NCBI GenBank assembly: GCA_009664345.1
Contig: CP043547.1
Location: 2,508,709 to 2,572,708 of the forward strand
Direction of reading: 5' to 3'
Length of the DNA: 64,000 nt
DNA from: Planctomycetales bacterium 10988
Lineage (GTDB): Bacteria; Planctomycetota; Planctomycetia; Pirellulales; Pb10988
Position 1 is the first letter of the stretch. Each line of letters starts with the position of its first letter. This document shows positions 958-42,500 of the stretch, in pieces. Under the pieces are notes generated by a model, which saw only the letters and a list, made by a program, of their open reading frames with translations, ran no database searches and was not told the DNA's origin. Both the position numbers and the translations under genes were made by a program.

Positions 958-2079
958 ATGAAAGCGTCAAACTTGCCAATGGGTCGTCAACCTCTGGCCC
1001 TCATCATGACCCTTCTGGTGCTGACCGCCGCCACGTCCCTTCCCGCCCAAGAGACCGGGACAGCTTCTGTTCAAAAAGAGCAGATGATTACCAAAGCGAT
1101 TCAGTACTTGGAAAAAGCTCAGCTCGAAGACGGTTCTTATCAAACCGCGATGAAGCTCCCCGTGACCGCGATCGTCACCACCGGGGTGTTGCGTTCGGGC
1201 CGCTCCGCCAGTGATCCCTTAGTTGCCAAGAGTCTTTCCTACATTCAAGGCTTCGTTCAAGAAGACGGGGGAATCTACGCTCCGGACAGCACGCATCGCA
1301 ACTATGAAACGTGCATCGCCTTGCTCTGTATGTCGGAAGCCAATCGAGATGGCCGTTTCGACAAACTGATCCAAAATGCCAAAACCTTTATCACCGGGAT
1401 GCAATGGGATGAAGAAGATGGCACCGAGGTCACCGATCCCGCTTACGGCGGAGCAGGTTATGGACGCCATCGCCGCCCGGATCTTTCCAACACCCAATTC
1501 TTCATTGATGCCCTGCATGCCGCTGGGGTCGGCCCCGAAGAGGAAGCCATGAAGAAGGCGTTGGTCTTTATTTCTCGCTGCCAAAACCTGGAATCCGAGC
1601 ACAACACCTCGCCCTTCTCCGCCAAGGTCAATGATGGTGGGTTCTATTACACTGTTGCCGCCGGTGGCTCTAGCCAAGCTGGCGAAACCGAAGATGGCGG
1701 GCTGCGAAGTTATGCCTCGATGACCTACGCTGGTTTGAAGAGTATGATCTTCGCCGGGGTCGATGAAAGTGATCCGCGAGTCGAAGCCGCTTACAAGTGG
1801 GCCTGCAAGCATTACACCTTGGAAGAAAACCCCGGCATGGGGACCTCGGGACTCTTCTACTATTACCACACGTTCTCCAAAGCCCTTGATGCGATGGAAG
1901 TGGAAACGATGGTCGAAGAAAACGGCACCAAGCACGATTGGCAAGCCGAACTCGCAAAAGAGCTGGCCGAACGTCAAAACCCGGATGGTTCTTGGACCAA
2001 CGACAATCCACGCTGGATGGAAGGCGATCCGATCCTCACCACCGGATACAGCCTCTTAACGCTTAGCTATTGCGAATAG
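958..2079 (+). CDS. Exported prenyltransferase/squalene-oxidase repeat protein (terpene cyclase-like fold)
   Basis: The 373-residue product begins with a signal peptide (hydrophobic core about residues 13-29, cleavage near LPAQ). The mature part is built from repeats of the squalene-hopene cyclase/prenyltransferase beta type. Helix-pair repeats carry QLEDGSY (about 55), QEDGGIY (about 101), DGGFYYT (about 228) and QNPDGSW (about 342), the QxxDGSW-like turns that define these alpha-alpha barrels. There is no DxDD cyclase motif, so a cyclase reaction is not supported. Secreted planctomycete proteins of this class are of unknown role. The start has AAAGGA at proper spacing. It is transcribed towards the sulfatase at 2181 and shares a terminator with it. 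The fold is well supported; the function is unknown. Confidence 0.85.
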   Translation: MKASNLPMGRQPLALIMTLLVLTAATSLPAQETGTASVQKEQMITKAIQYLEKAQLEDGSYQTAMKLPVTAIVTTGVLRSGRSASDPLVAKSLSYIQGFVQEDGGIYAPDSTHRNYETCIALLCMSEANRDGRFDKLIQNAKTFITGMQWDEEDGTEVTDPAYGGAGYGRHRRPDLSNTQFFIDALHAAGVGPEEEAMKKALVFISRCQNLESEHNTSPFSAKVNDGGFYYTVAAGGSSQAGETEDGGLRSYASMTYAGLKSMIFAGVDESDPRVEAAYKWACKHYTLEENPGMGTSGLFYYYHTFSKALDAMEVETMVEENGTKHDWQAELAKELAERQNPDGSWTNDNPRWMEGDPILTTGYSLLTLSYCE

Positions 2080-2086
2080 ATTTTAT

Positions 2087-2100
2087 AAAAAGCACTTTTT
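2087..2100 (+). repeat. AT-flanked near-palindrome, form AAAAAGCACTTTTT
   Basis: A copy of the dispersed motif AAAA[GC][CT][AG]CTTTTT, eight bases after the stop of the gene at 958-2079 and ahead of the shared terminator. Confidence 0.7.
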
Positions 2101-2116
2101 GAGTTTTAACAAAAGA

Positions 2117-2152
2117 AAGCCCTTCCCCAAAAATCGTTCTAGGGAAGGGCTT
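2117..2152. terminator. Bidirectional intrinsic terminator
   Basis: AAGCCCTTCCC (2117-2127) pairs perfectly with GGGAAGGGCTT (2142-2152) around a 14-base loop. A run of A comes before it and a run of T after it. It sits between two convergent genes (stops at 2079 and 2181), so it can end both transcripts. Confidence 0.9.
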
Positions 2153-2180
2153 TTCTTGTTTAGATTTTGATGACAGAAGA

Positions 2181-3572
2181 TTACTTACGGCCGTTGGCTT
2201 TATCTTCCATTTCAATGCCGGCCATCCATTCGCGATAGATTTGTTCCATCGCCTCGACTCGCTTGGGATTTTCAAAAGCCAGGTTGGTTCGCTCGCCGAG
2301 ATCATCAGGCAGATAAACCAAAAAGCGCTTATCGCTTTTTGTAAGCGGAGCGGTATCGCTGCGATCGCGAGGGTCTCCCAATAACTTCCAATCTCCTTGA
2401 CGAACCGCCCACTGCGATCCCAACCGCCAGCAAAATTGATCATGCGGCGTTTTCGCCTTGGGGGAACGAATCACCTTGGCGATGCTCTTTCCATCCAACC
2501 ACTTTTGCGGAACCTCGGCATCTGTCAACTCTGCCAAGGTCGGCAGCCAATCGCAGCCCGTTACCATTTGACTGCGAACTTCTCCTTGCGGAAGTTCTCC
2601 CGGCCAAGCGATAATCGCCGGCACACGAATCCCCCCTTCGAACAGACAACCTTTCGCTCCGCGATACGGTCCGGCATTTCCACCGCCGAAGAAAGTTCGT
2701 TCTTCGGTCGAATGGCCATGATCAGATTGAAAGACAACAATTGTCTCCTTTTCCAACCCAGCTTCTTTCAAGGTCTGGAGCACTTTGCCGATGGTTTCAT
2801 CCATCGTCGAGACGAAGGCTGCATACTCTTTCCGGGGCGAAGGCAAATCGCGATAGTGTTCTCGCCACTTCTCGGTCCCTTGCAACGGATAGTGCGGTAA
2901 GTTAATCGCCCAGTACAGAAAGAACGGATTGTCCCGCTTTTGCTTGATAAAGTTCTGACATTCTCGCACCATCAGATCGGGGAAGAATTTTCCGTCCTCC
3001 CAGACCTCCTTCCCATCTCGCCAGAGGTCATGCCGATTCGGCCCGTTCCAGTAGAAAAAATGCGAATAGTTATCGATACATCCTCCCATGTGGCCAAAGG
3101 AAGAATCAAACCCTTGTCCCAGCGGCGTTGTCTCCGGAGTGTAACCCAAGTGCCATTTGCCAACATGCCCTGTATCGTAGCCGGCCTCTTTGAACATTTC
3201 CGCCATCGTGAATTCGTCAGGCGGCATGCCGGGCTTACCTTTGGAACTTGAAACATTCCCAGGAACTCCGGCACGAAACGGCGTCCGTCCGGTCATCAAT
3301 CCGGCTCGCGATGGGGAGCAAACCGCCGAAGCAGCATAAAATTGATCAAAGCGAACGCCCCGTTCGGCCAGGCCGTCAAGGTGCGGGGTCATCAAGTCCT
3401 TCGCCCCATAACAATTCAGGTCAATCGAACCTTGATCATCCGTAAAGATGATGACCACATTCGGCCGGGAGCTTTCCGCATTCGCCACGCGATCGGATAC
3501 CTCGCCGCCGATCAGGCAAGCCACGCACCCAACCAAGGATTGAAGCAAGAGAAATCTATTCGCAAATAACAT
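2181..3572 (-). CDS. Exported sulfatase (formylglycine type, arylsulfatase family S1)
   Basis: The 463-residue product has an N-terminal signal peptide (about 1-32). It then shows the sulfatase core: the metal-binding FTDDQG near residue 43 and the CSPSR formylglycine motif at residues 85-89, where the Cys is oxidised by a sulfatase-maturing enzyme. HVGKWHLGY (about 137) and QSDHG (about 284) supply further active-site His, Lys and Asp. It should remove sulfate esters from extracellular or periplasmic polysaccharide; the sugar cannot be told from sequence. The ATG is preceded by AAAGGAA. The end of the gene contains a hairpin, AAAAAGCG/CGCTTTTT (2320-2340), resembling a decayed copy of the dispersed motif. 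It lies directly downstream of the large PPC protein and may be transcribed with it. Confidence 0.93.
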   Translation of the reverse strand: MLFANRFLLLQSLVGCVACLIGGEVSDRVANAESSRPNVVIIFTDDQGSIDLNCYGAKDLMTPHLDGLAERGVRFDQFYAASAVCSPSRAGLMTGRTPFRAGVPGNVSSSKGKPGMPPDEFTMAEMFKEAGYDTGHVGKWHLGYTPETTPLGQGFDSSFGHMGGCIDNYSHFFYWNGPNRHDLWRDGKEVWEDGKFFPDLMVRECQNFIKQKRDNPFFLYWAINLPHYPLQGTEKWREHYRDLPSPRKEYAAFVSTMDETIGKVLQTLKEAGLEKETIVVFQSDHGHSTEERTFFGGGNAGPYRGAKGCLFEGGIRVPAIIAWPGELPQGEVRSQMVTGCDWLPTLAELTDAEVPQKWLDGKSIAKVIRSPKAKTPHDQFCWRLGSQWAVRQGDWKLLGDPRDRSDTAPLTKSDKRFLVYLPDDLGERTNLAFENPKRVEAMEQIYREWMAGIEMEDKANGRK

Positions 3573-3690
3573 TCAGTAACTTTCCTTTCATTGCTTTGTA
3601 ATTTTATCAATGAATCAAATTCGAAAACTCTATAGACTTTGCCATCCACAAAAAGAGAGAGGGCGTTCCTCTCTCTATCCGTTACTTCTT

Positions 3691-6669
3691 CTATTGTTTT
3701 GCCTTCGCAGCGGGTTCCTTCTTCTTGCTCTTCGCCCCCGGCAAAGGTGGAAAATCTTCTTTCGACCTCGCAAGTCCGATGTGATCGAAGCCCGCTTCTT
3801 TCCCATCTTCAGGAGTCAAAGCCAACCCGTTCAAGGTAAACTCCCCGAAGTCCGCAAAGAGATCCCGCGTGACGACTTGCCAATCACTTGGAATCTTTTC
3901 GCTGACCGTGATCGCTGGCAAACGGGGATGTACTTCCCCCGCGAGATACCGATACTCCGGGCCATCCTGTCCCTTTCGCGCTCCCCAAGCCCCGTTGGCA
4001 TTGAACTGCAAGAGCACCCGCGCCCCTTCCACTTTCTTCCAAGCAAAACGGAGATAACGGAACTCACCAGGGCCGGGATTTTCTCGAATGGCATAAGCCC
4101 AGCCCGGCATTTGCGGCTGATGAACTTGTGGAGGCAAGACGCGAAGCGAATATTTTCCAGAGAACGGGTCTTTCGGATTGATCAAGGCAATCAATTTATC
4201 TTTGCTCAACCAAGCCGCCATCTCGGGCTGATCTTCGAAGATGGAGACAAAGTTGCCCAGCGGTTCCGGGGCACTCCCCGGTTGCACGTCCAACTTGATC
4301 GGGACCGGATTCGACTGCAACTCCGGTCGCAACACACTCAAAGCGACAACCTTCAAATCCGCTTTTTGGATGTCCGGCATCTCTTGCGGAAAGTGAACGG
4401 GGATGGAAAACTTCGATTGATTGGAAAAGACCCAAGCTGCTAGCGGCGGCACCTTGTTAGGTAGCCCTTCCACCCGCACGAGCACATGATGATTGAAGCC
4501 TTGCGTCCTTACGACTTCCCCGGTGATTTCACCCGTCTCGCCGGCACCAAGGCGGGCTAGGATCGGACCTTGGTTATCAACTTTGAGCTGCAATGGAGAT
4601 TGCGGAGTCAAGCGAAAGACCGGCGTTGAGGCCGTAGCAATCACTTTATTTCCCGCCTCGTTAAGCATTTCGGCCTTAATCGCAAAGTCATACGGCATTC
4701 CCGGTAAGTCCGCCGGCACCATCAGGGTCAGCTCAACTTCGTTCTGCTCCCCATCGATGGCCTTCTCTTCCTTCAATCGCAAAGTCTTTTCCACATCGGT
4801 CACGAATCGATTCCGCTCGCGCCGCTGTGGAGGTTTTTGCGAAGTCGCCAGCTTGAACCGCAACCCGCCTTCGTGCCCTTCTTCGCGTTGAATCAACAGC
4901 TTCAAAGGCAAAAAGTGGTCTTTGGGTAGTCCTTGCGGAGGTTCTTCCCACACAAGGTGGAACGGCAACTTCGGCCCGGTCGCGATCCCGATCGCATTTC
5001 GCAACCATGGCTGTAACATGCTCGCTTGTGTTTCTTCCAATAGGACCGGCCGTGTCACCGGAACGGGTCCGTCAAGATTCGTTCCCGTTATCGAAAGCAA
5101 ACCAGCATACGGTTCGATCTCTTCCGGCGTGGTGAAGGTGACCAGCATCTCCGTAGCTTTCGCGGGAATTTCTTGAGGATGGACTTCGACCCCGTCCGGC
5201 ACTCCAGCAAAGCGAAGTTGAATCCGGCCGTTATAACCATTGCGTTCCACCGCGATGCGGGCCATCGTCGAACCACCGGGCAACAACTGAACGGCATCGG
5301 CTTCGGCAAACGTCAAATGAAAGTCGGCCATCGTGCTCGGCCGTAATTCAAGTCGATAGACGGAATCCTCCCCGCCATTACTTAACAGGTCCCGGATTTC
5401 CAAGAAGACTTCGTTCACGTTCTTAGGAACTTGATAGGTAAAGACCGGATCGACGGAGACGGCTTGATCATCTTTATTCAAAAGTACTTTTCGATTCTTG
5501 TCGCGAAGGATCATCACTGCATCGAGTTCGGAACCCATTCGATTCGCCACGAGTTCCGCTTGGAACTTCGTCCCTGGTGTGACTTCGATCCGATATCGAT
5601 CGACTTCGCCCGGTTGAGAAATCCGCCCGTTGATGCCAACTCCCAGCGGGACGGTCACCGCCTCATTGGGTGCCGTTCGCAGTTCGGCTTCGGACTGATC
5701 CGGCAAGTCGCTGACAAAGATCGCCGGACTTGGCCCGGTCATGCCCACTACTGGCGGTTGCGGCAAAGGCTGATATTTCGTCGGTTTCAAAGGCATTTGT
5801 AAGGAACGGTAGCCCTCTGGAAGATTCGTCTTCAGCAGTTCGAAGCCAACCTGATCCGCGGCATGGGTGCCGAGCGGAAAGGCGAGATCGGTGTAATACA
5901 GATCGCTGCCAATCTTCAACCGGAACTGATTTACCCGGCCTCCTTTGAAGGTGAGGTCATGCAACTTCACCGTATATTTTCCGGAAGTCGGCAAGGTGAC
6001 GATCATCCGCACATCGCCGCCCAGCCGGTTTTCGCCATGCCCCCAAGCGAGCGGAATCCCATTGGCGTCTTGCAGTTCGAGGACCGGACGAATGTCCGAC
6101 CCAAGGCGTGTCGACTCGACTTCGAAGATCATCTGTTGGTCGGCTTGACCTTCAAAAGTGGTTTTTAGGATCAGCGGCCCGCCGACTCGACCACTGAACG
6201 AAATCGGTAGCGATTCGACTTGCTCTTGAAAAACGGCCTGCTTCAAATGATCGACGCCGAGCAGGATCGGACTGGAAATCCCCTCCGCATTCGCGATCCA
6301 AAAGGGATAAATACCTGGGCTGGTATCCGCCGGCAAAGAAATATCAAGAAAGGCCCGCCGGTCCACGCTTCGCTCTTGCAGCTCATAAGAGAATTCCGGC
6401 AAGGTGGAAAGCACCGTGATTGGCCCAGCGAGGTTTATCCCTCGAAGGTCGAGTGTCGTCTTGGCCCCGATTTGCAGTCCGTACAAATTCGAGGTTGTGA
6501 CCTTCGGCGGGTCCGCCTGCAAAAGAGATGGAAAGAAAAGCCAACTTGCCAATAAACAAAAAGCAACAGACCAACCGCTTCGATAGGCCCAGGGCTTTCG
6601 TAAATAATAAGTGATCGACTGCCCGGATACCGGGGGGTTATCCGACAGGGTGAATAGTAAATCGCGCAT
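3691..6669 (-). CDS. Large exported protein with pre-peptidase C-terminal (PPC) domains
   Basis: I chose the ATG at 6669 because GGAGGAAGG lies six bases upstream. The frame is open further up to 6792, but that stretch has no ribosome site and carries the dispersed motif. The product is then 992 residues. A signal anchor or signal peptide ends near LLQADPP (about residue 50). Several beta-rich domains follow. At least one, about residues 330-460, matches the PPC type (VDRYRIEVTPGTKFQAEL, then a D-rich turn and VYRLEL). The last 150 residues look like a jelly-roll ligand-binding domain, ending in a Lys/Ala-rich tail. Planctomycetes encode many such secreted proteins, often beside sulfatases. 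Enzyme activity is not evident; a binding or structural role is an inference. Confidence 0.8.
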   Translation of the reverse strand: MRDLLFTLSDNPPVSGQSITYYLRKPWAYRSGWSVAFCLLASWLFFPSLLQADPPKVTTSNLYGLQIGAKTTLDLRGINLAGPITVLSTLPEFSYELQERSVDRRAFLDISLPADTSPGIYPFWIANAEGISSPILLGVDHLKQAVFQEQVESLPISFSGRVGGPLILKTTFEGQADQQMIFEVESTRLGSDIRPVLELQDANGIPLAWGHGENRLGGDVRMIVTLPTSGKYTVKLHDLTFKGGRVNQFRLKIGSDLYYTDLAFPLGTHAADQVGFELLKTNLPEGYRSLQMPLKPTKYQPLPQPPVVGMTGPSPAIFVSDLPDQSEAELRTAPNEAVTVPLGVGINGRISQPGEVDRYRIEVTPGTKFQAELVANRMGSELDAVMILRDKNRKVLLNKDDQAVSVDPVFTYQVPKNVNEVFLEIRDLLSNGGEDSVYRLELRPSTMADFHLTFAEADAVQLLPGGSTMARIAVERNGYNGRIQLRFAGVPDGVEVHPQEIPAKATEMLVTFTTPEEIEPYAGLLSITGTNLDGPVPVTRPVLLEETQASMLQPWLRNAIGIATGPKLPFHLVWEEPPQGLPKDHFLPLKLLIQREEGHEGGLRFKLATSQKPPQRRERNRFVTDVEKTLRLKEEKAIDGEQNEVELTLMVPADLPGMPYDFAIKAEMLNEAGNKVIATASTPVFRLTPQSPLQLKVDNQGPILARLGAGETGEITGEVVRTQGFNHHVLVRVEGLPNKVPPLAAWVFSNQSKFSIPVHFPQEMPDIQKADLKVVALSVLRPELQSNPVPIKLDVQPGSAPEPLGNFVSIFEDQPEMAAWLSKDKLIALINPKDPFSGKYSLRVLPPQVHQPQMPGWAYAIRENPGPGEFRYLRFAWKKVEGARVLLQFNANGAWGARKGQDGPEYRYLAGEVHPRLPAITVSEKIPSDWQVVTRDLFADFGEFTLNGLALTPEDGKEAGFDHIGLARSKEDFPPLPGAKSKKKEPAAKAKQ
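5480..5491 (+). repeat. Near-palindrome AAAAGTACTTTT inside the PPC gene
   Basis: A shorter copy of the dispersed motif within coding sequence, where the minus strand reads Val-Leu-Leu. It may be chance, but it keeps the GTAC core. Confidence 0.35.
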
Positions 6670-6760
6670 GAACCTTCCTCCAACGCGAGCGGTGGGAACT
6701 ACGTGAATGCTCGCTCTCGCTTCCTGCTGCGAATCATCAAGCGATGCCATCACCTCTTCT

Positions 6761-6774
6761 AAAAAGCACTTTTT
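6761..6774 (+). repeat. Near-palindrome AAAAAGCACTTTTT upstream of the PPC gene
   Basis: With the start at 6669 this copy lies about 90 bases upstream of the PPC gene, in a promoter-like position. Confidence 0.7.
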
Positions 6775-7022
6775 ACTTTTCGAGGCAGGCAAGACTCAAT
6801 TCGCAGACTCTGAAGCAGAGCAAGCAACCGAAGTGGCCACGTTCCGAGTATTTCGAACGACCCCATCCAGGCCAAGGGTTAGGATTTTAAGGCGAATGGG
6901 TAGGAGGGCGTCCCGGTTCGCCAATCAACAATCTTCCGAAAATAGTCATTTTGACAGGCCCTACCCCCAAAGTCGAGTCCTTTCAGGGTATCCATCAAAA
7001 TTTCCCAATCTATAAACAAAAA

Positions 7023-7053
7023 GCGTGACTCTTAATTCATTTAAAAGTCACGC
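7023..7053 (-). terminator. Intrinsic terminator downstream of the BON gene
   Basis: GCGTGACT (7023-7030) pairs with AGTCACGC (7046-7053). Read on the minus strand the stem is followed by TTTTTGTTT, as expected for a terminator of the BON transcript. Confidence 0.75.
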
Positions 7054-7137
7054 CAAGAAGGAGGTTTGGGGGCGGAAGAAGTTTTTGTTGGAACGCTCTC
7101 GCCTGATGGTTCGTCAAGAACTTGCTTTCGCCTTTTC

Positions 7138-7151
7138 AAAAACCGCTTTTT
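7138..7151 (+). repeat. Near-palindrome AAAAACCGCTTTTT
   Basis: An intergenic copy between the BON gene and its terminator, with core CCGC. Confidence 0.65.
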
Positions 7152-7161
7152 AAGAGAGACG

Positions 7162-7243
7162 AAGAGCCGGTGGTCAAAACGATTCAGAATCAGGTAAACA
7201 CCTGGAAAAGGTGACTCCTAATTTACTTTTGACCACAAACTCT
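7162..7243 (-). repeat. Short MITE-like element, copy 1
   Basis: About 80 bases bounded by inverted repeats GTGGTCAAAA (7170-7179) and TTTTGACCAC (7227-7236), with AGAGTTT and GGCTCTT at the outer ends. The minus strand matches the plus strand of 16815-16895 over most of its length, including a shared AGTCACC and CAGG. It abuts the stop codon of the BON gene. No coding capacity. Confidence 0.55.
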
Positions 7244-7523
7244 AAGAAGCCTTCGAGAGTCGCGTTTTGGACGCGGCGGCTTCGGCAGCTTGGACATCGA
7301 CCTGATCGATGAGCGACAAGACACCGGCCACGCGACGGCAACAGGCTTCTCCGACTTCTTTGTCATAGCGGGTTTGGACGCGTCCTCGCAGAGTGACCAC
7401 GCCGCCATCGACCTCCACTTCGAGGTCCTTGAGAGCCGGATTGCGATCATTTAAATAATTCGCAACACGACGCTGGAGGGATTGATCCGTTAAGCGAGAT
7501 TCCTTCACTTGTTGGACCTTCAT
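7242..7523 (-). CDS. BON domain protein
   Basis: The start at 7523 is preceded by AAGGAGATGCCCA, a strong ribosome site, giving 93 residues rather than the longer open frame. Nearly the whole protein is one BON domain: a helix (DQSLQRRVANYLNDR), then LKDLEVEVDGGVVTLRGRV with the conserved Gly, then a Cys-Cys-containing helix and a final VDVQAA strand. BON domains bind membranes or other proteins and are common in osmotic-stress and envelope proteins. There is no signal peptide, so this one should be cytoplasmic. A MITE-like repeat begins at its stop codon and a terminator follows. Confidence 0.85.
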   Translation of the reverse strand: MKVQQVKESRLTDQSLQRRVANYLNDRNPALKDLEVEVDGGVVTLRGRVQTRYDKEVGEACCRRVAGVLSLIDQVDVQAAEAAASKTRLSKAS

Positions 7524-7681
7524 TGGGCATCTCCTTTTCATGCCGGGGGTGTAAAGACCATCCATGTGGAGAAACGCTCGTCTTGGCAATTAATCTATGT
7601 GTGTTCCAAGAGCGGTTCGTTCTCCTTGGAAAATACGCCCGCCTAGGTCGTATTTCCCATCAGCCGAGACCCGCTCTTTCC

Positions 7682-7694
7682 AAAAGTACTTTTT
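7682..7694 (+). repeat. Near-palindrome AAAAGTACTTTTT upstream of the BON gene
   Basis: An intergenic copy with the palindromic GTAC core, 160 bases upstream of the BON start. Confidence 0.65.
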
Positions 7695-7788
7695 GAAAAA
7701 GAAGAACGCGTCTCGGTTGTTCGGTTCAAGGAGGGAAGCTTGCAACTCGTGTGCAGGCGGAAGGAGGGTCTGGTGTTTGCCTCGAAAT

Positions 7789-9168
7789 TTACCACTTCGG
7801 CGGGCGTGGCAAATTTCCTAAACAGAGGCCCGGTCCTTCGAGCATAGAGGTATCAAGCGTTCCATCCTGGATTATAAACATGCCGGGGAAGGCGTCTGTC
7901 CAGCCTTGATTGCCGGAGGGGCAATACTGCCGGGCGTTCCCTTCAATGGCAGCAACGGTCGGAATGCGGGCGGATAAACTTGCCGAGTGCAAGAACGAAG
8001 CCCCTGGGCAGGTCAAATCTTGCACACATAGAAACATCTCGTATTTTTGCGCGGCGGCGGCCATGAAGAGCGCCCCGGTTTGGCCTTTGCATGCCTTCAG
8101 GGCGACGCCGGAATAACCTAAATCCCGGGCCAACAAAAGACTTTCTAAGTCCGTTAAACTTTCATCGATGACGACCGGCTTGAGCTTGGCCGCTTCGTGC
8201 ATCTTGCCGCTATTGACATTCTTCAAATCGCGGTTGGTCGGCTGTTCCAAATACTGGACGCGATCGTAGCCAGCGGGGGATTTCTCTTGAAGTTGCCTCA
8301 AAAACTCCAACACATACTCTACCGATTCGCAACGTTCATTGAAATCAAGGGAGTAAAACCACTCTTCGCAACCACGGGCGGTTTGGGCTTCCGCGGCGAC
8401 TTTTTCGATCGAAACAACGCGGTTGACATCCCAATCCAGATCATCGCCGGCGAGTTTAATTTTAAGGTGCGTCAGCCCTTCTTTGGTGATCCACTCGCCG
8501 AGGGTTTCCGGAATATCATCATTCAGCCGCTCGGGGATATCGGCTTCCGTCAAAGGATCAAGAGCGCCAACCAAGTGATAGAGCGGCATGCGGGGTTTGG
8601 GCTTCCGCAAAGTATACATATCCAGCGTTTCGCCGGAAAAGTCCGGCCCAAGATAAGAACCGAGGTCGCGATTCACATAATCGGAGCCGAGGAGATTGTA
8701 AGAATTCTCCCTTAAAACCATGCCAAAAGCATCGTGAATGGCCGCTTCGAACGGACTGGCAACGACCAATTGAGCCAGACGCGGCATCGGTTCGGATAGG
8801 CCGAGGGCTTCGCGAACGCCTTCGGCGGAGGGGTCGTGCTCGGTTTCCAACTCGTAGGTGATTTCCAACGGATGACCATATTCGCCGTAATCATCGTAGC
8901 CAAGACAGAGATGATCGGCCAAGACAAGCATTGCTTCAAGCGTCTGAGCATTCGTCAGCTCGGAACTCGGCCACGCCCACGTCGAGTTCATCGGCATCGA
9001 GCCAAATCCGGTGGCTTGCCGCCCGTCGCGAGTTTCGACTTTAATTGTCACATTGAGAAGAACGGCCTCGTTCATCACGCGGCCGCCGAACTTCATCGGG
9101 GTGCGGTACGCGATTGTTTGTCTTGAACAGGTCGCATCTAACAGACGAATATCCGTGGAGTGAGCCAA
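7789..9168 (-). CDS. Enolase-superfamily enzyme (mandelate racemase/muconate lactonizing type)
   Basis: This 459-residue cytoplasmic enzyme starts at TTG with AGGAG six bases upstream. It carries the superfamily signature: LKIKL (about residue 236, the KxK base), LDFNE (about 272), EQP (about 310) and IDES (about 335) as the three metal ligands, and KACKG (about 358) for the opposite catalytic Lys. Such enzymes abstract a proton next to a carboxylate and then racemise, cycloisomerise or dehydrate the substrate. The N-terminal capping domain is longer than in dipeptide epimerases, and the substrate cannot be assigned. No sugar or aromatic catabolic gene lies beside it. The class is firm; the reaction is open. 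Confidence 0.85.
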   Translation of the reverse strand: MAHSTDIRLLDATCSRQTIAYRTPMKFGGRVMNEAVLLNVTIKVETRDGRQATGFGSMPMNSTWAWPSSELTNAQTLEAMLVLADHLCLGYDDYGEYGHPLEITYELETEHDPSAEGVREALGLSEPMPRLAQLVVASPFEAAIHDAFGMVLRENSYNLLGSDYVNRDLGSYLGPDFSGETLDMYTLRKPKPRMPLYHLVGALDPLTEADIPERLNDDIPETLGEWITKEGLTHLKIKLAGDDLDWDVNRVVSIEKVAAEAQTARGCEEWFYSLDFNERCESVEYVLEFLRQLQEKSPAGYDRVQYLEQPTNRDLKNVNSGKMHEAAKLKPVVIDESLTDLESLLLARDLGYSGVALKACKGQTGALFMAAAAQKYEMFLCVQDLTCPGASFLHSASLSARIPTVAAIEGNARQYCPSGNQGWTDAFPGMFIIQDGTLDTSMLEGPGLCLGNLPRPPKW

Positions 9169-31166: not shown

Positions 31167-31251
<85 letters not shown>

Positions 31252-31262
31252 CTTCTTATGAG

Positions 31263-31297
31263 AAAAGGACTTAGGTCAACTTGACCTAAGTCCTTTT
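31263..31297 (+). terminator. Intrinsic terminator of tRNA-Leu
   Basis: AAAAGGACTTAGGTCAA and TTGACCTAAGTCCTTTT form a 17-pair arm around one central base (so the inner pairs open), followed by TTTTTTG. Confidence 0.85.
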
Positions 31298-31441
31298 TTG
31301 CGTATTATTCCCCGCCAAACGCCCTTGGTGCCTCATAAGTGCCTCATCGGGCAACCGTAGGGCGTCGTATGGCAAATGAATGGAAGGTCGTTATGGACAC
31401 CTTCCCAACCTCAATTTGTCTCGATTTCGTGCGGGTGAAAC

Positions 31442-31768
31442 ATGGCGAATCTCGGAGAAAAAAAGGGGCGATATTTCGCCCGATTCCGCTATCAGCAGAA
31501 AGAATACAAGAAGTCGCTCAAGACCCGAGATCGGCAGGAAGCGAACGCGGCATTGCATCTCATTGAAAAAGCGAATCAGGTTTTCCGGCAGCCCTTGCGA
31601 GGCACACGGCGGTGTTTGAACAGCGGGAAGAATTGGTTCAAACTCGGGTTTCATACGTATCGCAACCGCTTTGCCAGCACTCTTGCAGCTGCCGGAGTCG
31701 ATCGACGAATCATTGATGAATGGATGGGCACCCACCGAAGAGATCAAGTGTTTGAATTGAGAGGGTAA
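31442..31768 (+). pseudogene. Site-specific (tyrosine) integrase, internally deleted remnant
   Basis: The 108-codon frame joins two ends of a planctomycete tyrosine recombinase. Codons 1-45 are the N-terminal DNA-binding start (KKGRYFARFRYQQKEYKKSL). From about codon 69 the frame gives GFHTYRNRFASTLAAAGVDRR, the catalytic His-x-x-Arg box and the helix after it. The middle, with the first catalytic Arg and Lys, is missing. The final Tyr segment is replaced by an unrelated tail (RDQVFELRG). The intact family has about 350-400 residues. A direct repeat GTGCCTCAT occurs at 31328-31347 just upstream. Position right after tRNA-Leu is the classic place for an integrating element. Confidence 0.75.
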
Positions 31769-34434: not shown

Positions 34435-35553
34435 CTAAAGAAATGGCCATCTCTGCTCGAAGATCCGTTGCACACCTGGTGCTAGCCTTTCGGCAACTTG
34501 TACAACCCTGCGGAAGATGATGGTCGCCAGATAGCCGTCGTCGATGCTGGTGGGAGAATTGAAGTGACGATTTCCATCTTGCTTATACTCGATACGAACG
34601 AAGTTGTCATTTCTTGGTCTGTAAGGCATTGCTTCTTTTAAAGCCGACTCAATCATCAGCTTCGATAAGTCTTTAGTAGTGATGGACCCCTTCGATAGCT
34701 CGATATCAATCCCTTCATCGCCAGCTTGACCTGGATCGTAAACTAATCTTCCAGAACCATCTGCACGAATTTCACACACCCAAGGCTGATATGCCTGAGG
34801 CATGAATCGAACATATCCTCGTATGGAGTTGAATTGAGGGTGAAGCGAAGCCAAAAATTTGATGTCTTTCATCCGGTTTGAAGCAAAGAGGTGATACTTG
34901 GGGGCAACAAGTAGACCCTTCCAGAGATAGAAATCTGTCGATTCCCCATCGATGGAAGGACCGTTTTGCCAAAGCGGGAGCGCTTCATCGACATGGTCAA
35001 GAAAGATTTCTGTTAATTTAGAATCCTCAACGGAGACGGACGTTTGGTAGGCGATCTCCCGGAGCACCAAGGTCACAAGGAATTTTGACAAGGAGGAAGA
35101 GACGATTCTTTCCCCTTGAACCTTCTCACCTGTATCGAGAGTAAATTCTCCTCGACACCAAACGGGTGGCTCTTCTCCATCTACCTTAGTAAGACAAGCC
35201 CATCTACTGTTTTTTTCTTTGATGAATTGGACTCGGTCACCCTGGTACTGAAAGTTGTCAATGCGCAAGAATAATCTAAGGTCGTACTCAGCTGTGAGAT
35301 AATCGGAACGAGCATCTAAAAAAGGCTGGTGGCAGTACCAATTACCTACGAATCGGCACAATTTATGAAGGGGCCTCGGGAGATGTAAGTCTTCAATTGC
35401 ATTAATATGCCCAATGTAGGCATATCCTCGTGCAGATTCATAGCGAGTATGCCAACAGCCTGACCAATAATAGATAAAAAAGCATAAATATTTGATTCGT
35501 TCCGCTGGGTTCTTCGCACGCATTAATAGCTCGACGTTGAACTCTTTGGCCAT
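34435..35553 (-). CDS. Orphan protein of unknown function, 372 residues
   Basis: A soluble protein without signal peptide or membrane span and without any motif I recognise. It is rich in Tyr, Trp and Phe, with several Cys (YCHQPF, VWCRGEF). The N-terminal half has the look of an alpha-helical domain (KYLCFFIYYWSGCWHTRYES), the middle an all-beta region. Base use is AT-richer than in the rest of the window and no Shine-Dalgarno precedes the ATG. It starts 270 bases from the first Y RNA, divergently from the Ro60 gene. Linked by position only; I do not assign a function. Confidence 0.6.
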   Translation of the reverse strand: MAKEFNVELLMRAKNPAERIKYLCFFIYYWSGCWHTRYESARGYAYIGHINAIEDLHLPRPLHKLCRFVGNWYCHQPFLDARSDYLTAEYDLRLFLRIDNFQYQGDRVQFIKEKNSRWACLTKVDGEEPPVWCRGEFTLDTGEKVQGERIVSSSLSKFLVTLVLREIAYQTSVSVEDSKLTEIFLDHVDEALPLWQNGPSIDGESTDFYLWKGLLVAPKYHLFASNRMKDIKFLASLHPQFNSIRGYVRFMPQAYQPWVCEIRADGSGRLVYDPGQAGDEGIDIELSKGSITTKDLSKLMIESALKEAMPYRPRNDNFVRIEYKQDGNRHFNSPTSIDDGYLATIIFRRVVQVAERLAPGVQRIFEQRWPFL

Positions 35554-35820: not shown

Positions 35821-35968
35821 AAGAGACCGACTGCCTATTGGAGTACATGAATTTAATTCGTAGGTCGTGGGTTCGATTCCCTCCTTCTCGCACTTGATTG
35901 AAGTTTCGCGGGGAGTAGCTCAGTTGGTAGAGCGGCGAACATCTCTGATGATCCTTCGTCGGTCTTTT
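35821..35968 (+). ncRNA. Y RNA 1 (YrlA type, with permuted tRNA-like body)
   Basis: The ends AAGAGACCGAC (35821-35831) and GTCGGTCTTTT (35958-35968) pair and form the Ro-binding stem. Next come CGACTGC, then GGAGTACATG (35840-35849). The middle is a circularly permuted tRNA: a T arm (GTGGG, TTCGATT loop, CCCTC at 35867-35883) and the acceptor strand TTCTCGC (35885-35891). A 16-base linker joins it to the other acceptor strand GCGGGGA (35908-35914), seven pairs with G-U. The D arm GCTC-AGTTGGTA-GAGC (35918-35933) follows. This is the architecture known for bacterial YrlA RNAs that bind Rsr/Ro60. CTTCGTCGG near the 3' end is shared by all three copies. It is followed by TTTTG. Confidence 0.85.
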
Positions 35969-35978
35969 GTTTCAAATC

Positions 35979-35992
35979 AAAAAGTGATTTTT
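35979..35992 (+). repeat. Off-consensus near-palindrome AAAAAGTGATTTTT
   Basis: It lies between Y RNA 1 and Y RNA 2. The core GTGA departs from the [GC][CT][AG]C rule, so it may be a decayed copy or simple AT sequence. Confidence 0.3.
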
Positions 35993-36004
35993 AAATAGAA
36001 AACA

Positions 36005-36144
36005 CACTCGACTGCCGGTTCGGAGTACATGGTTTTGTAGGTTCGACTCCTATCCGGCCCCCTGCGTTCATACAAATGGGGCCGGACCTCGGGTTCATCT
36101 TTGGGTGAAGATCGGGGATTCCTCTGACCACACTTCGTCGAGTG
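36005..36144 (+). ncRNA. Y RNA 2 (YrlA type, with permuted tRNA-like body)
   Basis: CACTCGAC (36005-36012) pairs with GTCGAGTG (36137-36144); a different sequence from copy 1 but the same pairing, so the stem covaries. CGACTGC and GGAGTACATG (36022-36031) are kept. The T arm is GTAGG-TTCGACT-CCTAT (36037-36053). Acceptor strands CCGGCCCC (36054-36061) and GGGGCCGG (36078-36085) pair perfectly for eight bases, joined by a 16-base linker as in copy 1. The D-arm position holds another hairpin (TTCATC/GGTGAA). Inner pairs GGTT/GACC also match. CTTCGTCG closes it. No T run follows; it ends eight bases before copy 3. Confidence 0.85.
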
Positions 36145-36152
36145 CAAATCTC

Positions 36153-36225
36153 ACCCGACTGCTGATACGGAGTCCATGCTAGGGGCCTGAATCCTCTGTA
36201 TCCTTCTTCGTCGGGTCTTTTTTTT
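36153..36225 (+). ncRNA. Y RNA 3, short form without tRNA-like body
   Basis: ACCCGAC (36153-36159) pairs with GTCGGGT (36210-36216). CGACTGC, GGAGTCCATG (36169-36178) and CTTCGTCGG are the same landmarks as in copies 1 and 2. The inner strands GATAC and GTATC (36164-36168, 36197-36201) extend the stem. Only about 18 bases lie in place of the roughly 85-base tRNA-like body. A T8 run (36218-36225) follows, making it a terminator-like end, and the Ro60 ribosome site starts five bases later. It could be a minimal Y RNA, or a regulatory hairpin that lets Ro60 bind its own mRNA leader. Confidence 0.78.
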
Positions 36226-36239
36226 GAAAGGAGGTTTTC

Positions 36240-37865
36240 ATGGCCAATCAAGAACTTTTCTCAAGCATGCAAGGCAAACACCCTCGGGCGGATGCGAGAA
36301 ATAAAGCCGGAGGTCGAGCGTATCGACTTTCTCCCAAACATGCGTTGGCCCAGCTAGCCTCCACCGGATGTTTCAATGGGGTATACTACGCCTCCGCTCA
36401 ATCTCAATTGGATGACTTGTTTCGGCTCATCCAGGAAGTAGACGACGTTCGTTATCTGGCGAAGCTGGCTGTTTACTCCCGAGAGCGGGCATTCATGAAG
36501 GATATGCCGGCGGCATTGGTGCTGGAGGTTGCCAAACGCGATCCAGCTTTGATGCATGTGATCTTTGATCGCGTTGTGGATAATGGTCGAGTTTTGCGAA
36601 CGCTCTTCCAGATGATTCGTTCTGGCCAATTTGGTCGTAAAGGTTTGTCCTCTTCCTTGCAACGGGCTTTCCAGCGTTGGTTAAATGAAGCCTCCGTCGG
36701 GAAGTTGCTATCGGCTTCGATCGGCCATCATCCGAGCCTCCGTGATGTTCTTCGCATGGCCCGCCCAACGCCGAAGGATAACGTTCGCCGGGCGGTCTTC
36801 GGATGGTTGACTGATAAGGATGTAGAAAAGTGGACACCGGCGTCGATGGCGGACCTTCCTTTCCAAGTGCAGACTTTGCTGAAGTACCGAGAGGCCGAAG
36901 ATGCCGAAACCCAAGTGGCCTTGTTGAACGACTTGTCCGTGCGATGGGATTTACTCGCGGATGCCGCAGTTGATTCCTCCGTGTGGAAGGCGATTGCTCG
37001 GCAAATGGGTCCACAAGCATTGCGGATGAACTTGAACACGTTGCTTCGTCATGAAGTGTTTGGAGTTGGGAAACCCGATAAAGAGATGGTCGAGTATGTT
37101 GCCGGCCGACTCTCGGATGCCGAAGAAATTCGGCGTTCGCGTCAGTTCCCTTACCAATACTTCGCGGCCTACATGAATGCAGACCCGAGGGTCCCGCAAA
37201 AGATCAAGTCGGCCTTGCATCAAGCGGCGGAGATCGCCTGTGAGAACGTTCCGATTTTGCCCGGCCCGGTCGTCATCGGGCTGGATGTTTCCGGTTCCAT
37301 GAATTACCCAGTGACGGGTTATCGAGGGCGAGGTGCTTCGAGCAAGATGCGATGCGTGGATGTGGCGGCCTTGATTGCGGCTGCGATTTTGCGGCGAAAT
37401 TCGGAGAGCATCGTTGTTCCGTTTGATACTCGATCGTATGTAACCAAGATGGACCCGAACGACTCTATTTTGAGTCTTTCAGAGCGGTTATCGCATTTCG
37501 GTGGGGGTGGAACGGACTGTTCGCTCCCTCTGCAAACTGCAAATACCACTTTTCGAAAGTCTCACTTCGCTGGAGTGATTCTGGTCAGTGATACGGAAAG
37601 CTGGCTTGGAAATGGCCGTTACGGCTCGACAGGGGTCATGACGGAATGGGAGAAGTTCATCAAGAATCAACGTAAGCAAGGAGACGATATTTCTCCGAAG
37701 TTGATCTGTATCAATCTTCAACCTTATGGAACTTCGCAGGCTCCGGAACGGGAAGAGATTCTCAACATCGGTGGTTTTAGCGATGCAATCTTCCAAGTGA
37801 TCGCCGCCCACCTCTCCGACGATGCCAACCGCTTCGTTTCGGAGGTTGAAGCGATCGAACTGTAG
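36240..37865 (+). CDS. rsr: Ro60-family (TROVE domain) RNA-binding protein
   Basis: The 541-residue product begins at ATG with AAAGGAGG five bases upstream, directly after the T run of Y RNA 3. The N-terminal two-thirds is the TROVE ring of helical repeats ([20 protein letters not shown] near 37, then [20 protein letters not shown] near 70). The C-terminal part is a von Willebrand A domain with a complete metal site, GLDVSGSM (about 347) and a later GGGTDC Thr-Asp pair (about 422). Bacterial Ro (Rsr) binds Y RNA on the ring's outer face and guides structured or misfolded RNA to exonucleases, being induced in stress. With three adjacent Y RNAs the assignment is firm. A terminator follows the stop. 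Confidence 0.95.
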
Positions 37866-37943: not shown

Positions 37944-39488
37944 TTAGTCCTCCCTGAAAAAGTCTTAAAAATTCAATTTTTCCTGGGTATGATAGCTTTA
38001 ACACCGGCGAAGGGTAGGGTAAACTTTGCCAGGATTTTCGGCCTTGACCTTGCAAACCTTGCAAACGGAGAACGGTGATGAAGCCGCCTTTGAACCCAGA
38101 GTCGAACCAGCAGGACCTGTTTCGGGCGTCGTTCGAGCAGATTCTCAACCCCGAGCATCCGCTTGTTCGTCTCGCCGAGCGGATCGATTGGCGGCGGTTT
38201 GAGGCGGCGTTCGAGGGCTGTTATGCCGCCGACTTCGGGGCTCCGGCGAAGGCCACCCGGCTGATGGTCGGGCTGCATTATCTCAAGCACGCCTTCGGCG
38301 AGTCGGACGAATCGCTGCTGGATCGTTGGGTGGAAAACCCGTACTGGCAGTGCTTTTGCGGCTTCACGACGATGCAACATGTGCCGCCGATTCATCCCAC
38401 CGCGCTCATCAAATGGCGGCAACGCGTCGGGGCCGAACGGCTGCAACAGCTGCTGGAAGAGACCCTCGCTCTGGCCGTTCGTAGCAAGCAAGTCCGGCCT
38501 CAAGAGCTGCGGCAGGTCACCGTCGACACGACCGTGCAGGAGAAAAATATCACGCCGCCGACTCGAAGTTGCTGCTGAAGGCGATCCACAAACTCGGCAA
38601 GGCGGCCAAAACGCGGGGCATTCGCCTGCGGCAATCGTATGTCAACGTCGCCAAGCAGGCCGCCCTGCAAGCGAGTCGTTATGCCCACGCCAAGCAGTTC
38701 AAGCGGATGCGACGCCGCCTCAAAAAGCTCCGCACTTGCCTCGGTCGGGTGATCCGCGACGTCCGCCGCAAGCAGCCGAAGCCCGATTTTTCCCTGGAAA
38801 AACTGCTGTTCTTGTGCGAACGCGTCCACCGGCAGCAGCCGCATGATAAGCAAAAACTCTACAGCCTCCACGAGCCGGAGGTGGTTTGCATCAGCAAAGG
38901 CAAGGCCCACCGGCGGTACGAATTCGGGCAAAAGATCGCCCTCGCGACGAGCAATCGCGGCAATTGGGTCGTCGGCGTGCGGCTGTGCGAGGGCAATCCG
39001 TACGACGGCCACACCCTCGCCGCGACGCTGCAAACGGTCGAGTCGACGACCGGCCAAGCGGTGAGCGACGCCTTCGTTGACAAGGGATATCGCGGCCATG
39101 ATTACCGTGGTCCAGCGAGGGTTCACTTGGCCGGCAGCAGCACGCGAGGCCTGAGTCGGACCCAGAAAAAACGCCGCCGACGCCGCAACGCGATCGAGCC
39201 AAAGATCGGCCACCTCAAGTCGGACCACCTTCTGGGACGTTGCTTTCTCAAGGGCTTGGCCGGTGACGCGATCAACGCGGTCTTGGCTGGAGCGGCGGCG
39301 AACATCCGAAAACTACTTTTGGCTTTCGGGCCTGCGCGGATTGGTTGGCCGTGGCAACAGCTCGCCCTGCTCCTCAAGCTCCTCAAAGAAGCGTTTACCT
39401 GCCCAGCAATGGCTCCCCCCCCGAACCCGCACTCCCCTCCTCGCTTGATAAAAGCGAGAAAAAAAGACCTTTTTTCAGGGACGACTAA
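37944..39488 (+). mobile_element. IS5-family-like insertion sequence
   Basis: The ends are inverted repeats: TTAGTCCTCCCTGAAAAA on the left (37944-37961), and on the right, read backwards from 39488, TTAGTCGTCCCTGAAAAA, 17 of 18 alike. The inside is distinctly GC-richer than the flanks and carries one transposase in two frames. No clear direct repeat of the target lies outside the ends. Length 1545 bases is usual for the family. The element is probably dead, because the transposase is frameshifted and runs past the right end. Confidence 0.85.
39309..39320 (+). repeat. Motif-like AAAACTACTTTT inside the transposase
   Basis: It fits the consensus with one T fewer. It lies in the GC-rich IS, so it may be coincidence. 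Confidence 0.3.
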
Positions 39489-39497
39489 TTATTATCG

Positions 39498-39510
39498 AAA
39501 ACTACTTTTT
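39498..39510 (+). repeat. Near-palindrome AAAACTACTTTTT, right flank of the IS
   Basis: Begins nine bases outside the right IS end, five bases before the stop of the GH127/sulfatase gene. Confidence 0.7.
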
Positions 39511-39514
39511 GAGA

Positions 39515-42500
39515 CTAGTTTGGATTATCTACCGTCACGGGACCAGGATGATTGATGGTGGTGGCGTCGTTGGCGGCACCGGGGAATTCTCCGAATGGTG
39601 GACTTTTTCGGACGGACTTGTGAAGCGGTTGCCTTGAGGGGGTTGGCTTGGAAGGTAAACTATCGCCGGTCTCTTCTTTCCACTGCTTGAGCAAACTCCG
39701 CATCTCACGCAAAGTCGTGGCGAACTCCGGGTTTTCCGCCAAGTTATGAAATTGATGAGGATCATCGGTCACGTTGAAAAGCATTTCTTCCGGTTGCGGC
39801 ACTTGGGTTAACAAATTTTGAGCCGCCGTCAGTTTGCCTGCCTTCGACATCTCCCACAACTCCTTGGCAGCAGGGAAAGTTGGGACGGAACTCTCGGCAC
39901 TGACATTATGATTCTGCGGCATTCCGTTCCAAATGTAGAGAAAATCGCCGGTCCGCACTGCACGTTCATGGGCTTGGTAGACATGCCAATTCCGCTCCGC
40001 GAAGGCAACCGTGCGAATTTGTTGCGTCGGGTCTTCGAGAATCGGAGCAAAGCTGACTCCTTGCACCGTTTCGGGTTTCTTCACCTTGGCTAAATCCAAG
40101 AAGGTCGCGGAAAAATCAAGCGAACTCACCAACGAGTCCGTTCTCCCGGCCTCAATTCCTGGGCCGAGGATCAAAAGCGGAGTCTGAATCCCACTTTCAT
40201 AAAGATAGGTTTTACAGCGAGGGAGTGGCCGCCCGTTGTCCGAACAGTAGACGAAGTACGTGTTGTCGGCGATGCCCTGAGCTTCCAATTCCTTCATCAA
40301 CTCCCCGGCATAGTGGTCCGTTCGGCTGACTTCATGATAGAAACCTGTCAGCTCCTCTCTCGTCAAAGGACCATCGTAGAGCATCGGGGGGACTTCGACC
40401 TGATCGGCCTTGAACCGCGGTGCCTTATCATCATATTGCCAAGCGTGATGGGCATCGTGCGCTGCAAACCAGCAGAAGAAAGGACGATCGAGAGGCCGTT
40501 CCCGCAGGTGTCGAATCCAGTTTTCCGAACCCGAAGGTTTGCTATCGGAAGAAACCTCGAAGCCAAGTTGCTGGGGATCGGCCATGTGGTTCTTGCCGGA
40601 TAGCACCGTATAGTAACCGGCCTCTTTTAAGGTTTGGACGAAGGTCGTTTGGGAAGCGGGCAATGATGAGTGAAGTTCCGGTGCCCCGGTGTTGTGGGGA
40701 TAACGACCGGTGATGATCGAGCAACGGCTGGGCGAACAGGAGCTGATGGTCAGGTAGGCGTTATCGAAGACCAATCCCCGTTGGGCAAGGCGTTCGAGGT
40801 TGGGTGTCTGAATTTTCTGATTGCCATAAATGCTTAAATCGCCGGGGCTGATGTCATCTGTGATAAAGAAAATGAAGTTCGGCTTCTCGGTCTTGGCGGT
40901 TTGCCGCGGGATCGGCAAAGGCTTCGGTTGCGATTCTTTGGCTTTGGGAGATGCCATACTCAGCAGCTCTTCGGGAAGATATCCCCAGGGAAAAGCTGCG
41001 ATGCGAAGCGTTGAAGAACCATAAGGAATCAGCGTGATTTCTTCGAGCTTGCCTCCTTGCGGAAGATCGACCGGGCTAAGCGGTGGCGGGGCAGCCGAGT
41101 TTCGATGAATGGTCCAATCCGGAAGACGCATGCCTTCGGCCACAAGTCGCACCGGAGCGTTTTCACGTGTCCAAGGATTGCGGGGGATCTTTTTCGCCAC
41201 GTTGATTGTGATATTTTCTTGCGGTCGAATGGCGATACGATCCGTCAGGGCGTAATTCCAAGGGGACTTTGGTTGCACCGTTTGATAGCCTCGATGCATG
41301 GCGGACTCCGGCACACCGTCGGGTCGCGGCTCTTTGACCTCTTGCCAAGATTCTTCAATGTCCAACGCATAAACGAGCGGGCCGCGTTCCACCGCGAACG
41401 ATCGACCGTACCACCGTGAGGTTCGCACCGGCATCGGAAATCGGAGAAAGATTTCATCCTCATCCCGCCACTCTCGCTCAACAACGTGCATCGTCCCTGA
41501 CTTCGGGGTCGGCAGCTTTTGCCCATTTACTTCGAGCTTCGTATTGCTTGCCCATTCTGGTATTCGAAGATGCAGCGGAAATTGAACCGGGCCATCGGTC
41601 GAAATCTTGAAGCTGACGACTTCCTTAAAAGGATAGCCGGAAGTGACATCGATCGAGACTTCTACGCCATCGGCAACTTGGGCTGTGACGGAAGAAGGGG
41701 CGTAAGAAACAGCCGCCAATCCACCATCTTGGGATGCCATCCACAGATGTTGCGTAAACTTGGGCCACCCTTGATGAAGATTGCAAGTGCAACAAGGGTA
41801 GCCACTCAACAGCCCATAAACCACGCGGTCGCCAAAATCATTGAGAAAGTCCCGATTGCCGATCGTGCATTGGACTTGATTCGTCTGTTGAAAATATTGC
41901 CTGCCGCGATAGTCATCCGTGGTTTGCGTAGGCAACGCGTTAAAAGTAATCCGATCCAGCCGATCGGCGAAAGACGGGTTTCCGGTGATTTCGAACATCT
42001 TTTCCAGCGAATACATCATCTCAACCGCCGTGCATAGCTCCGAGCCACGGTCAGGAGAATCGCCGTGCAACCCTTCGTCGCCACCATACAAACCATGCGG
42101 TTGGCCGTGAATTTGGTAAATGTCGGTGAAAGCATGGCGGACGGCGGCCAGATGACGATCGTTCTTGTCAAGTTGCCATCGGATGATCGGCGTCTTCATC
42201 ATCTGTGCAAGATTAACACAGTGAAATGTTTGCATTCCCGACATTGCTTGCCGGTGGGTGAACCGGTCGGAGAAGCGGGCGATTTTGTTTTCAGGGCCGC
42301 GGATTAGCCAATCCGTTGCGGGCACGGTCTGCTGATAAATGAGGTCCGCCAAGTCAAGTAAAAACTTTTCGCCCGTGATATTATAGAGCCAGAGGACGAC
42401 CATCATGTTGTCGCCTCCGCGTTGTGCCGCCCACCAAGAGCCGACGTTGCGAACCTTGGGATTGTAAAGCGGCTGGTTCGGCAATTCCTTCAGTTGAAAG

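Follow-up and report, generated by a model that had tools for sequence, protein, structure and literature searches.

Y RNA genes upstream of rsr in Planctomycetales bacterium 10988: a YrlA-type permuted tRNA body and candidate mimics of other structured RNAs in related loci

Background

Upstream of the gene for a Ro60 homologue (rsr) in Planctomycetales bacterium 10988 lie two stretches of DNA in which parts of a tRNA, namely a T arm and an acceptor stem, can be read in an unusual order. Which RNAs does this locus encode, and why would they carry pieces of a tRNA? Ro60 is a human lupus autoantigen conserved from bacteria to humans, and the locus bears on the question of why Ro60 carries Y RNAs with such diverse heads. 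An initial annotation took both stretches for circularly permuted tRNA bodies with an identical 16-base linker, and saw in this fixed geometry a sign of selection for a folded tRNA mimic, possibly a substrate for tRNA-modifying enzymes. Among bacterial Y RNAs, YrlA is described as a circularly permuted tRNA fold (PMC11472068) and is reported to bind Rsr and PNPase and to be modified by DusA and TruB (PMC8394870). Here we examine the locus within a window of 64,000 nucleotides, the whole stretch analysed, and compare it with rsr upstream regions of relatives.

Methods

Relatives were drawn from 396 whole genomes of the order, 75 of which carry rsr at E 1e-30 or better, and were supplemented with one contig of a viral collection and with the best 80 of 228 named contigs, 79 of these having planctomycete titles, which point to Pirellulales as the probable order of the window. 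The 139 upstream regions that could be placed reduced to 116 distinct ones, nearly all planctomycete, which represent a sample and not a census. Distances of frame matches to rsr were obtained by comparing positions by hand. The window genome's own 23S rRNA (in L161) served as reference for the rRNA-like bodies (class R).

Results and discussion

Three Y RNA units upstream of rsr

The rsr gene of the window (36240-37865, + strand) encodes a 541-aa Ro60 homologue with matches to vWA_Ro60 (7.7e-14) and TROVE (1.2e-6), and the best PDB sequence match of its product is the Rsr structure 2nvo (2.5e-18). Three units precede it on the same strand: unit 1 (35825-35964), unit 2 (36006-36143), and unit 3 (36153-36216), which is short, has no tRNA part, is followed by a T run, and lies in the rsr leader with 23 bases between it and the start codon. 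The initial annotation had confined the two tRNA-like bodies to 35865-36086; the full RNAs are larger, and the third unit lies outside that span. Common to all three is a frame composed of a lower stem of 7 bp with GAC/GUC at its end, the internal loop UGCC../..CUUC, and an upper stem GGAG/CUCU, after which the body varies; in the DNA the frame reads GACTGCC..GGAGTACATG and CTCTGA..CTTCGTCG, and the Y stem of unit 1 is GACCGAC/GTCGGTC. Bacterial Y RNA genes are recognised by their position beside a gene for a Ro60 homologue, which is where these units lie. Judged from frame, gene linkage, and YrlA match, we identify the units as bacterial Y RNAs; the window thus holds three Y RNA genes, one of YrlA type, one of half-tRNA type, and one short.

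The genome also contains genes for PNPase and for RtcB. An RNA repair operon with RtcB was considered and rejected because the RtcB gene, approximately 0.88 Mb away, is not linked to rsr. As to the surroundings, a tRNA-Leu(GAG) gene and, after it, a short ORF whose similarity to phage integrases is weak and under the Pfam cut-off (together 31167-31768) are possibly the remnant of an integrated element; a protein of approximately 372 residues with no Pfam match at E 0.001 is encoded divergently from the Y units (34435-35553, - strand); and downstream of rsr, two overlapping ORFs with transposase domains (DUF772, DDE; 38075-39555) are perhaps one transposase split by a frameshift.

Unit 1 carries a permuted tRNA body

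Inside the Y stem, unit 1 has the order that defines the YrlA type: a T stem-loop (35867-35883; GTGGG-TTCGATT-CCCTC, with one U-U mismatch), an acceptor hairpin (35884-35915), and, separated from it by TA, a D arm (35918-35933; GCTC-AGTTGGTA-GAGC). The T stem-loop was located by descriptor and alignment, the acceptor hairpin by descriptor, and the D arm by sequence and covariation. The hairpin consists of CTTCTCGC (35884-35891), a 16-nt linker (35892-35907), and GCGGGGAG (35908-35915), which form eight pairs and not the seven first proposed. The Rfam YrlA model (RF02553) matches unit 1 with 48.7 bits (E 8.4e-10); because this is below the gathering score of 69, we call the unit YrlA-type and not a member of RF02553.

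Folded on its own, unit 1 does not surpass shuffled sequences (z -0.14; units 2 and 3, -2.21 and -1.80), and its minimum-energy fold keeps the acceptor hairpin and D arm and misses the Y stem and T arm. The structural claim therefore rests on covariation and not on energy. Alignment of homologous loci had been proposed as a check, and among 46 class A units (of 57 non-redundant) related to unit 1, 96.1% of cells are paired, compared with 36-48% in slid controls, and 26 of 35 pairs are changed on both sides, including all eight acceptor pairs. Each of the two acceptor pairs nearest the linker is unpaired in 16 of the 46, so the class A acceptor stem is best given as 6 to 8 bp. The lower stem served to find units and so cannot count as independent evidence by its pairing, in contrast to the acceptor, whose pairing played no part in finding them. 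In a further test, anchored only on T-loop and D-arm words with no requirement for pairing, 79.2% of cells were paired across 93 distinct bodies (a few being real neighbouring tRNAs) versus 52.7% (sd 1.6) when partners were redealt. The same test gave 40.5% versus 34.6% for class B, which is a mixture and was set aside as evidence.

The compensatory change that had been read from a comparison of unit 1 with unit 2 is real, then, but its source is the relatives of unit 1. Together with the YrlA match, it argues that unit 1 is, as the initial annotation held, a tRNA mimic that is folded and circularly permuted in the manner of YrlA, and by analogy the published role of YrlA as a substrate of tRNA-modifying enzymes fits this unit. 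Permutation at the anticodon arm is already known from the circularly permuted tRNA part of YrlA (PDB 6CU1), and in its core this YrlA-like design is not new. Assignment of class A bodies to single tRNA isotypes was not reached from 155 parsed D-arm positions: 84 were of GCTCA type, 7 tRNA-Leu-like, 4 of GTTTA type, 2 of GGCTA/GGCAA type (one a misparse), 1 of GTCTA type (a misparse), and 57 'other/none', in several of which the parser ran past the D arm.

Unit 2 and the 16-nt linker

Unit 2 shows the T arm (GTAGG-TTCGACT-CCTAT) and an acceptor hairpin (36054-36085) made up of CCGGCCCC (36054-36061), a 16-nt linker (36062-36077), and GGGGCCGG (36078-36085), with the eight pairs initially counted, or nine counting one more. 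The permuted order breaks off at this point: the place of the D arm is taken by a 31-nt hairpin (CCTCG...CGGGG; 36087-36117). In 10 aligned units of this type, the acceptor sequences are nearly invariant and the hairpin fold is kept, with differing sequences, in all 10. Since no D arm follows the acceptor, unit 2 was not filed as YrlA, the Rfam model matching it with 22.8 bits (E 0.026), again below gathering; it mimics a T arm and acceptor only, at most half a tRNA. Units 1 and 2 thus belong to different conserved types. Their sequences had been said to differ completely, which applies to acceptor and linker but not to the T loop (TTCGA in both) or the Y frame; a D loop with GG is present in unit 1 only.

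The linker is 16 bases in both units, as first observed. The meaning attached to this does not survive comparison: linker lengths range from 3 to 39 in 74 class A hairpins (those with at least 6 contiguous pairs among 82 distinct, window included), seven having 16, and from 16 to 21 in the 10 units of the unit 2 type (window unit included). The probability that a class A unit and a unit of the unit 2 type, each drawn at random, agree in loop size is 0.031. Because linker lengths vary freely, the equal 16 is a coincidence that fixes no geometry, and a fixed 16-nt geometry is rejected. In L113, L037, and L038, a palindrome-like TGAG/CTCA repeat resembling a small mobile repeat sits within the class A acceptor linker (units at about -750 and -1730, -500 and -1380, and -710 from rsr).

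A descriptor of T arm plus acceptor finds, over the 64 kb, units 1 and 2 as the only matches on the + strand and one match with a 50-nt linker on the minus strand. As 30 first-order Markov resamples of the window yield a mean of 0.43 matches per strand (maximum 3), the chance of a single descriptor match is not negligible.

Y unit arrays in relatives

Searching for the frame instead of the body recovered 315 units, often in arrays, in 95 of the 116 upstream regions; the reverse strand and three Markov resamples yielded no unit. At a stricter threshold, 83 of the 105 regions with at least 1.4 kb of sequence contain a unit, 41 contain at least 3, and 13 at least 5 (maximum 9). The 22 regions with no unit at this threshold include those of distant Rsr paralogues; four (L065, L066, L070, and L071) carry permuted T-arm bodies in a frame foreign to the finder. 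Matches of other units to the Rfam YrlA model reached at most 51.4 bits in seven loci, below the gathering score of 69; an Rfam search for the other body types of the L010 array gave one YrlA match (E 1.5e-5) and four weak matches (E 0.02 to 6.9, all below gathering).

Linkage to rsr is also seen in the whole genomes, where the exact frame pattern has 52 matches in 35 of 396, 44 of them within 6 kb upstream of rsr and 42 within 2 kb. The others comprise four on other contigs of rsr-bearing genomes (G207, G199, and two in G251), one lying 1.4 Mb from rsr fragments (G314), and three in genomes in which rsr had no match (G223, G187, and G252). The frame finder confirmed framed units in G223 and G314, found a different short unit near the pattern match in G187, and found none in G252. 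No rsr was found in the 14-kb stretches of G223 and G314, and on the evidence of these two some Y units may act without Rsr. Copies or fragments of rsr with an in-frame TGA occur in G220, G251, G311, and G346.

Other body types within the same frame

Beyond the types seen in the window, arrays of relatives contain bodies of classes D, E, and R, none of which is present in the window array. In class D (10 units), the order is 3' D-stem half, a stem resembling that of the anticodon arm and closed by a short cap, T arm, acceptor hairpin, and 5' D-stem half, the Y stem standing in place of the D loop, as in a tRNA permuted at the D loop. Cells are paired in 91.8% of cases and 9 of 32 pairs are changed on both sides; the D stem is invariant and hence offers no covariation evidence. 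Class E (8 units) comprises two hairpins and a T arm, with a 4-bp closing stem joined to the Y frame, and corresponds to an unpermuted arrangement with the Y stem on the acceptor (94.2% of cells paired; 11 of 30 pairs changed on both sides). Support for the proposed class D and E folds is moderate, given 10 and 8 related sequences and a count of 'further pair types' no higher than in shuffles (148 and 263 of 500, respectively).

Class R bodies resemble 23S rRNA. The motif CCTAAGGTAGC lies near a Y-like 5' end in 24 of 116 regions, 16 of these within a unit of the frame finder, and a variant occurs in L131, beyond the 24. All 22 extracted units have their best match to 23S rRNA at helix 69-71 over 21 to 31 bases, 17 with E <1e-5 and the remainder weaker (L127, 2e-5; L158, 7e-5; L113, 0.003; L104 and L160, 0.009), and the 23S origin is firm. 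The exact class R pattern is found in 6 of 396 genomes, in all six within approximately 1.2 kb upstream of rsr. In L086, L125, L158, and L010, a second match of 13-15 bases further downstream in the unit corresponds to the bases immediately 5' in 23S rRNA, which gives a permuted order; the corresponding match in L097 is 9 bases, and such second matches are individually weak (E 1.5-8). A windowed control of the 3' part gave clear support in 3 of 17 units, for which no control window scored as well, moderate support in L097 and L108 (4 of 292 and 4 of 290 control windows), and weak or no support in the other 12. Twelve of the 17 were aligned, with 95.6% of cells paired and two-sided changes at 19 of 42 pairs; the permuted H69 stem is paired in all 12, and two-sided changes affect 3 of its 5 pairs. 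L117, L135, L136, and L153 instead have an H69 loop sequence that is whole or nearly so. Pairing, together with sequence in a minority of units, suggests that class R is in part permuted at the H69 loop.

A further body type, built around a hairpin like GGGAAGCGGGAGCTTCCC and often nearest rsr, occurs in L089 (about 3879-3979), L091, L093, L081, L020, and others; searches with L089, L091, and a related L010 unit matched no Rfam family. Among the literature matches listed, some from broad queries, none described arrays of Y RNAs in planctomycetes or Y RNAs resembling rRNA, and none, among those listed, described D-loop-permuted, acceptor-attached, or 23S-like Y forms.

Proposed function

The explanation that we favour, and regard as rather probable, is that these Y RNAs would serve as adaptors held by Rsr, their variable effector bodies tethering or gating a partner. 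The common frame would be the likely Rsr-binding handle and the body the effector; in unit 1, the body is a tRNA with its D arm placed after T arm and acceptor and with the Y stem where the anticodon arm would be. On the model of the Rsr-YrlA-PNPase particle in the literature, the Y stem would be held by Rsr and the tRNA-like body would engage a protein able to grip the elbow or acceptor of a tRNA, be it PNPase or a tRNA-modifying or -processing enzyme, and the Y RNA would in this manner tether Rsr to its partner and gate that partner. As the arrays of relatives combine different tRNA shapes with a 23S H69-H71 shape, an array may constitute an adaptor set through which a single Rsr is directed to various components of the translation machinery. 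Rsr binding, partners, and function are here extrapolated from published YrlA work (PMC11472068, PMC8394870, PMC7790460), and PNPase is a predicted partner in planctomycetes. A Y RNA set that copies tRNA faces and an rRNA core would, if confirmed, make the adaptor idea directly testable, and a naturally permuted 23S fragment would be a rare case of rRNA mimicry by a small RNA.

Neighbouring tRNA arrays

Many related loci also contain clusters of tRNA genes. In 52 regions with at least 3.4 kb upstream, 37 have a tRNA gene, 27 at least 3, and 12 at least 10 (maximum 25), and several arrays end in Trp-Thr-Arg-Arg-Arg-Cys, or a subset, adjoining the Y units. In K23_9 (G215), 26 of 66 tRNA-model matches fall within 3664682-3670089, just upstream of the Y array and rsr (3672363). 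The window has no tRNA array. In L192, the stretch from G223 in which no rsr was found, ARAGORN places 37 tRNA genes in an island at 1990-8292 that also holds two Y units and encodes an HNH endonuclease and a Band-7 protein; tblastn relatives of these two proteins occur in 20 and 5 of 94 rsr loci, respectively.

A wider reading, which we offer tentatively and with less than even confidence, is that planctomycete Ro60 loci encode a Y RNA repertoire in which one Ro60-binding frame presents different structured-RNA mimics, i.e. tRNAs whose permutation point is the anticodon arm or the D loop, acceptor-attached tRNAs, and a 23S H69-H71 core permuted at the H69 loop. Y RNAs and tRNA arrays together would make up an island for surveillance or repair of the translation machinery, in which every Y RNA provides Ro60 with a different target or partner.

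The same features could be read as a damage response in which Y RNAs act as decoys, showing tRNA or 23S surfaces that absorb or report tRNA- or rRNA-cleaving toxins, beside spare tRNA arrays. The bodies do copy tRNA and 23S H69-H71, more than half of the 52 regions have the clusters of at least 3 tRNA genes just described, and in Anabaena a spare tRNA operon is reported to be induced by translation inhibitors, its repressor also repressing rtcB (PMC10272220). We nonetheless consider decoys unlikely: the usual target, the anticodon loop, is absent, class A having no anticodon arm and class D, where readable, a short-loop cap; Salmonella YrlA fragments are reported as undetected when tRNAs are cut (PMC7790460); and the window lacks a tRNA array.

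The unit nearest rsr and other alternatives

The position of unit 3 raises the possibility that the unit nearest rsr is a cis element through which bound Rsr would effect autoregulation or attenuation, the other units being individually terminated RNAs. In 68 of 95 regions, no more than 120 nt separate the end of the last Y unit from the rsr start (median 26 nt for these 68), and runs of at least four T follow 36 of 68 short units, compared with 10 of 315 control positions. Such runs also follow tRNA-like units, however (64 of 91 in class A; counts for the remaining types are 68 of 111 for other units, 7 of 17 for class R, 2 of 10 for class D, and none for the 8 class E units and the 10 of the unit 2 type), and the 68 nearest units are of mixed kind (24 short, 33 other, and 11 class A), and leader regulation is in our view an improbable account of the units.

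In some red algae, permuted tRNA genes mature into working tRNAs, and the order of T arm, acceptor, linker, acceptor, and D arm would suit such a gene. That the present units do so is scarcely credible, as units 1 and 2 lack an anticodon arm, 9 of the 74 class A hairpins have loops of 3-5 nt, the Y stem is conserved, and neither ARAGORN nor the tRNA model calls a tRNA at them. Chance repeats or decayed tRNA genes, suggested by the tRNA clusters adjoining the region in relatives, are similarly far-fetched in view of the covariation and the zero background of the frame finder.

Comparison with known systems

A functional permuted tRNA was rejected, no tRNA being called at the Y units by ARAGORN or the tRNA model and no cloverleaf with an anticodon being found, and a permuted tmRNA (RF04321) was rejected at 11.4 bits on the covariance model, against a gathering score of 47. 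The tRNA clusters of relatives, up to 25 genes upstream of rsr, are like the tRNA arrays or degenerate clusters of mycobacteria, Anabaena, and planctomycetes, degenerate clusters in the last being reported in PMC4807772; in the main texts of PMC4807772, PMC12803027, PMC10272220, and PMC5966550, searching by term turned up neither Ro60 nor TROVE. The Salmonella rsr-yrlBA-rtcBA operon likewise has rsr with more than one Y RNA, whereas here RtcB is unlinked to rsr and the Y RNAs lie upstream of it. With RYPER, the Rsr-Y RNA-PNPase particle of Deinococcus radiodurans, the locus shares neighbouring rsr and Y RNA genes and a PNPase gene in the genome; it differs in that the particle here is a prediction and that the bodies in relatives are far more diverse. 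The closest likeness is to YrlA (RF02553; PDB 6CU1), with its Y stem enclosing T arm, acceptor hairpin, and D arm beside rsr. In contrast to YrlA, the Rfam score of unit 1 stays under the gathering cut-off and its acceptor linker measures 16 nt; a D arm is missing from unit 2 and any tRNA part from unit 3; and the arrays of relatives add other permutations and a 23S-like body.
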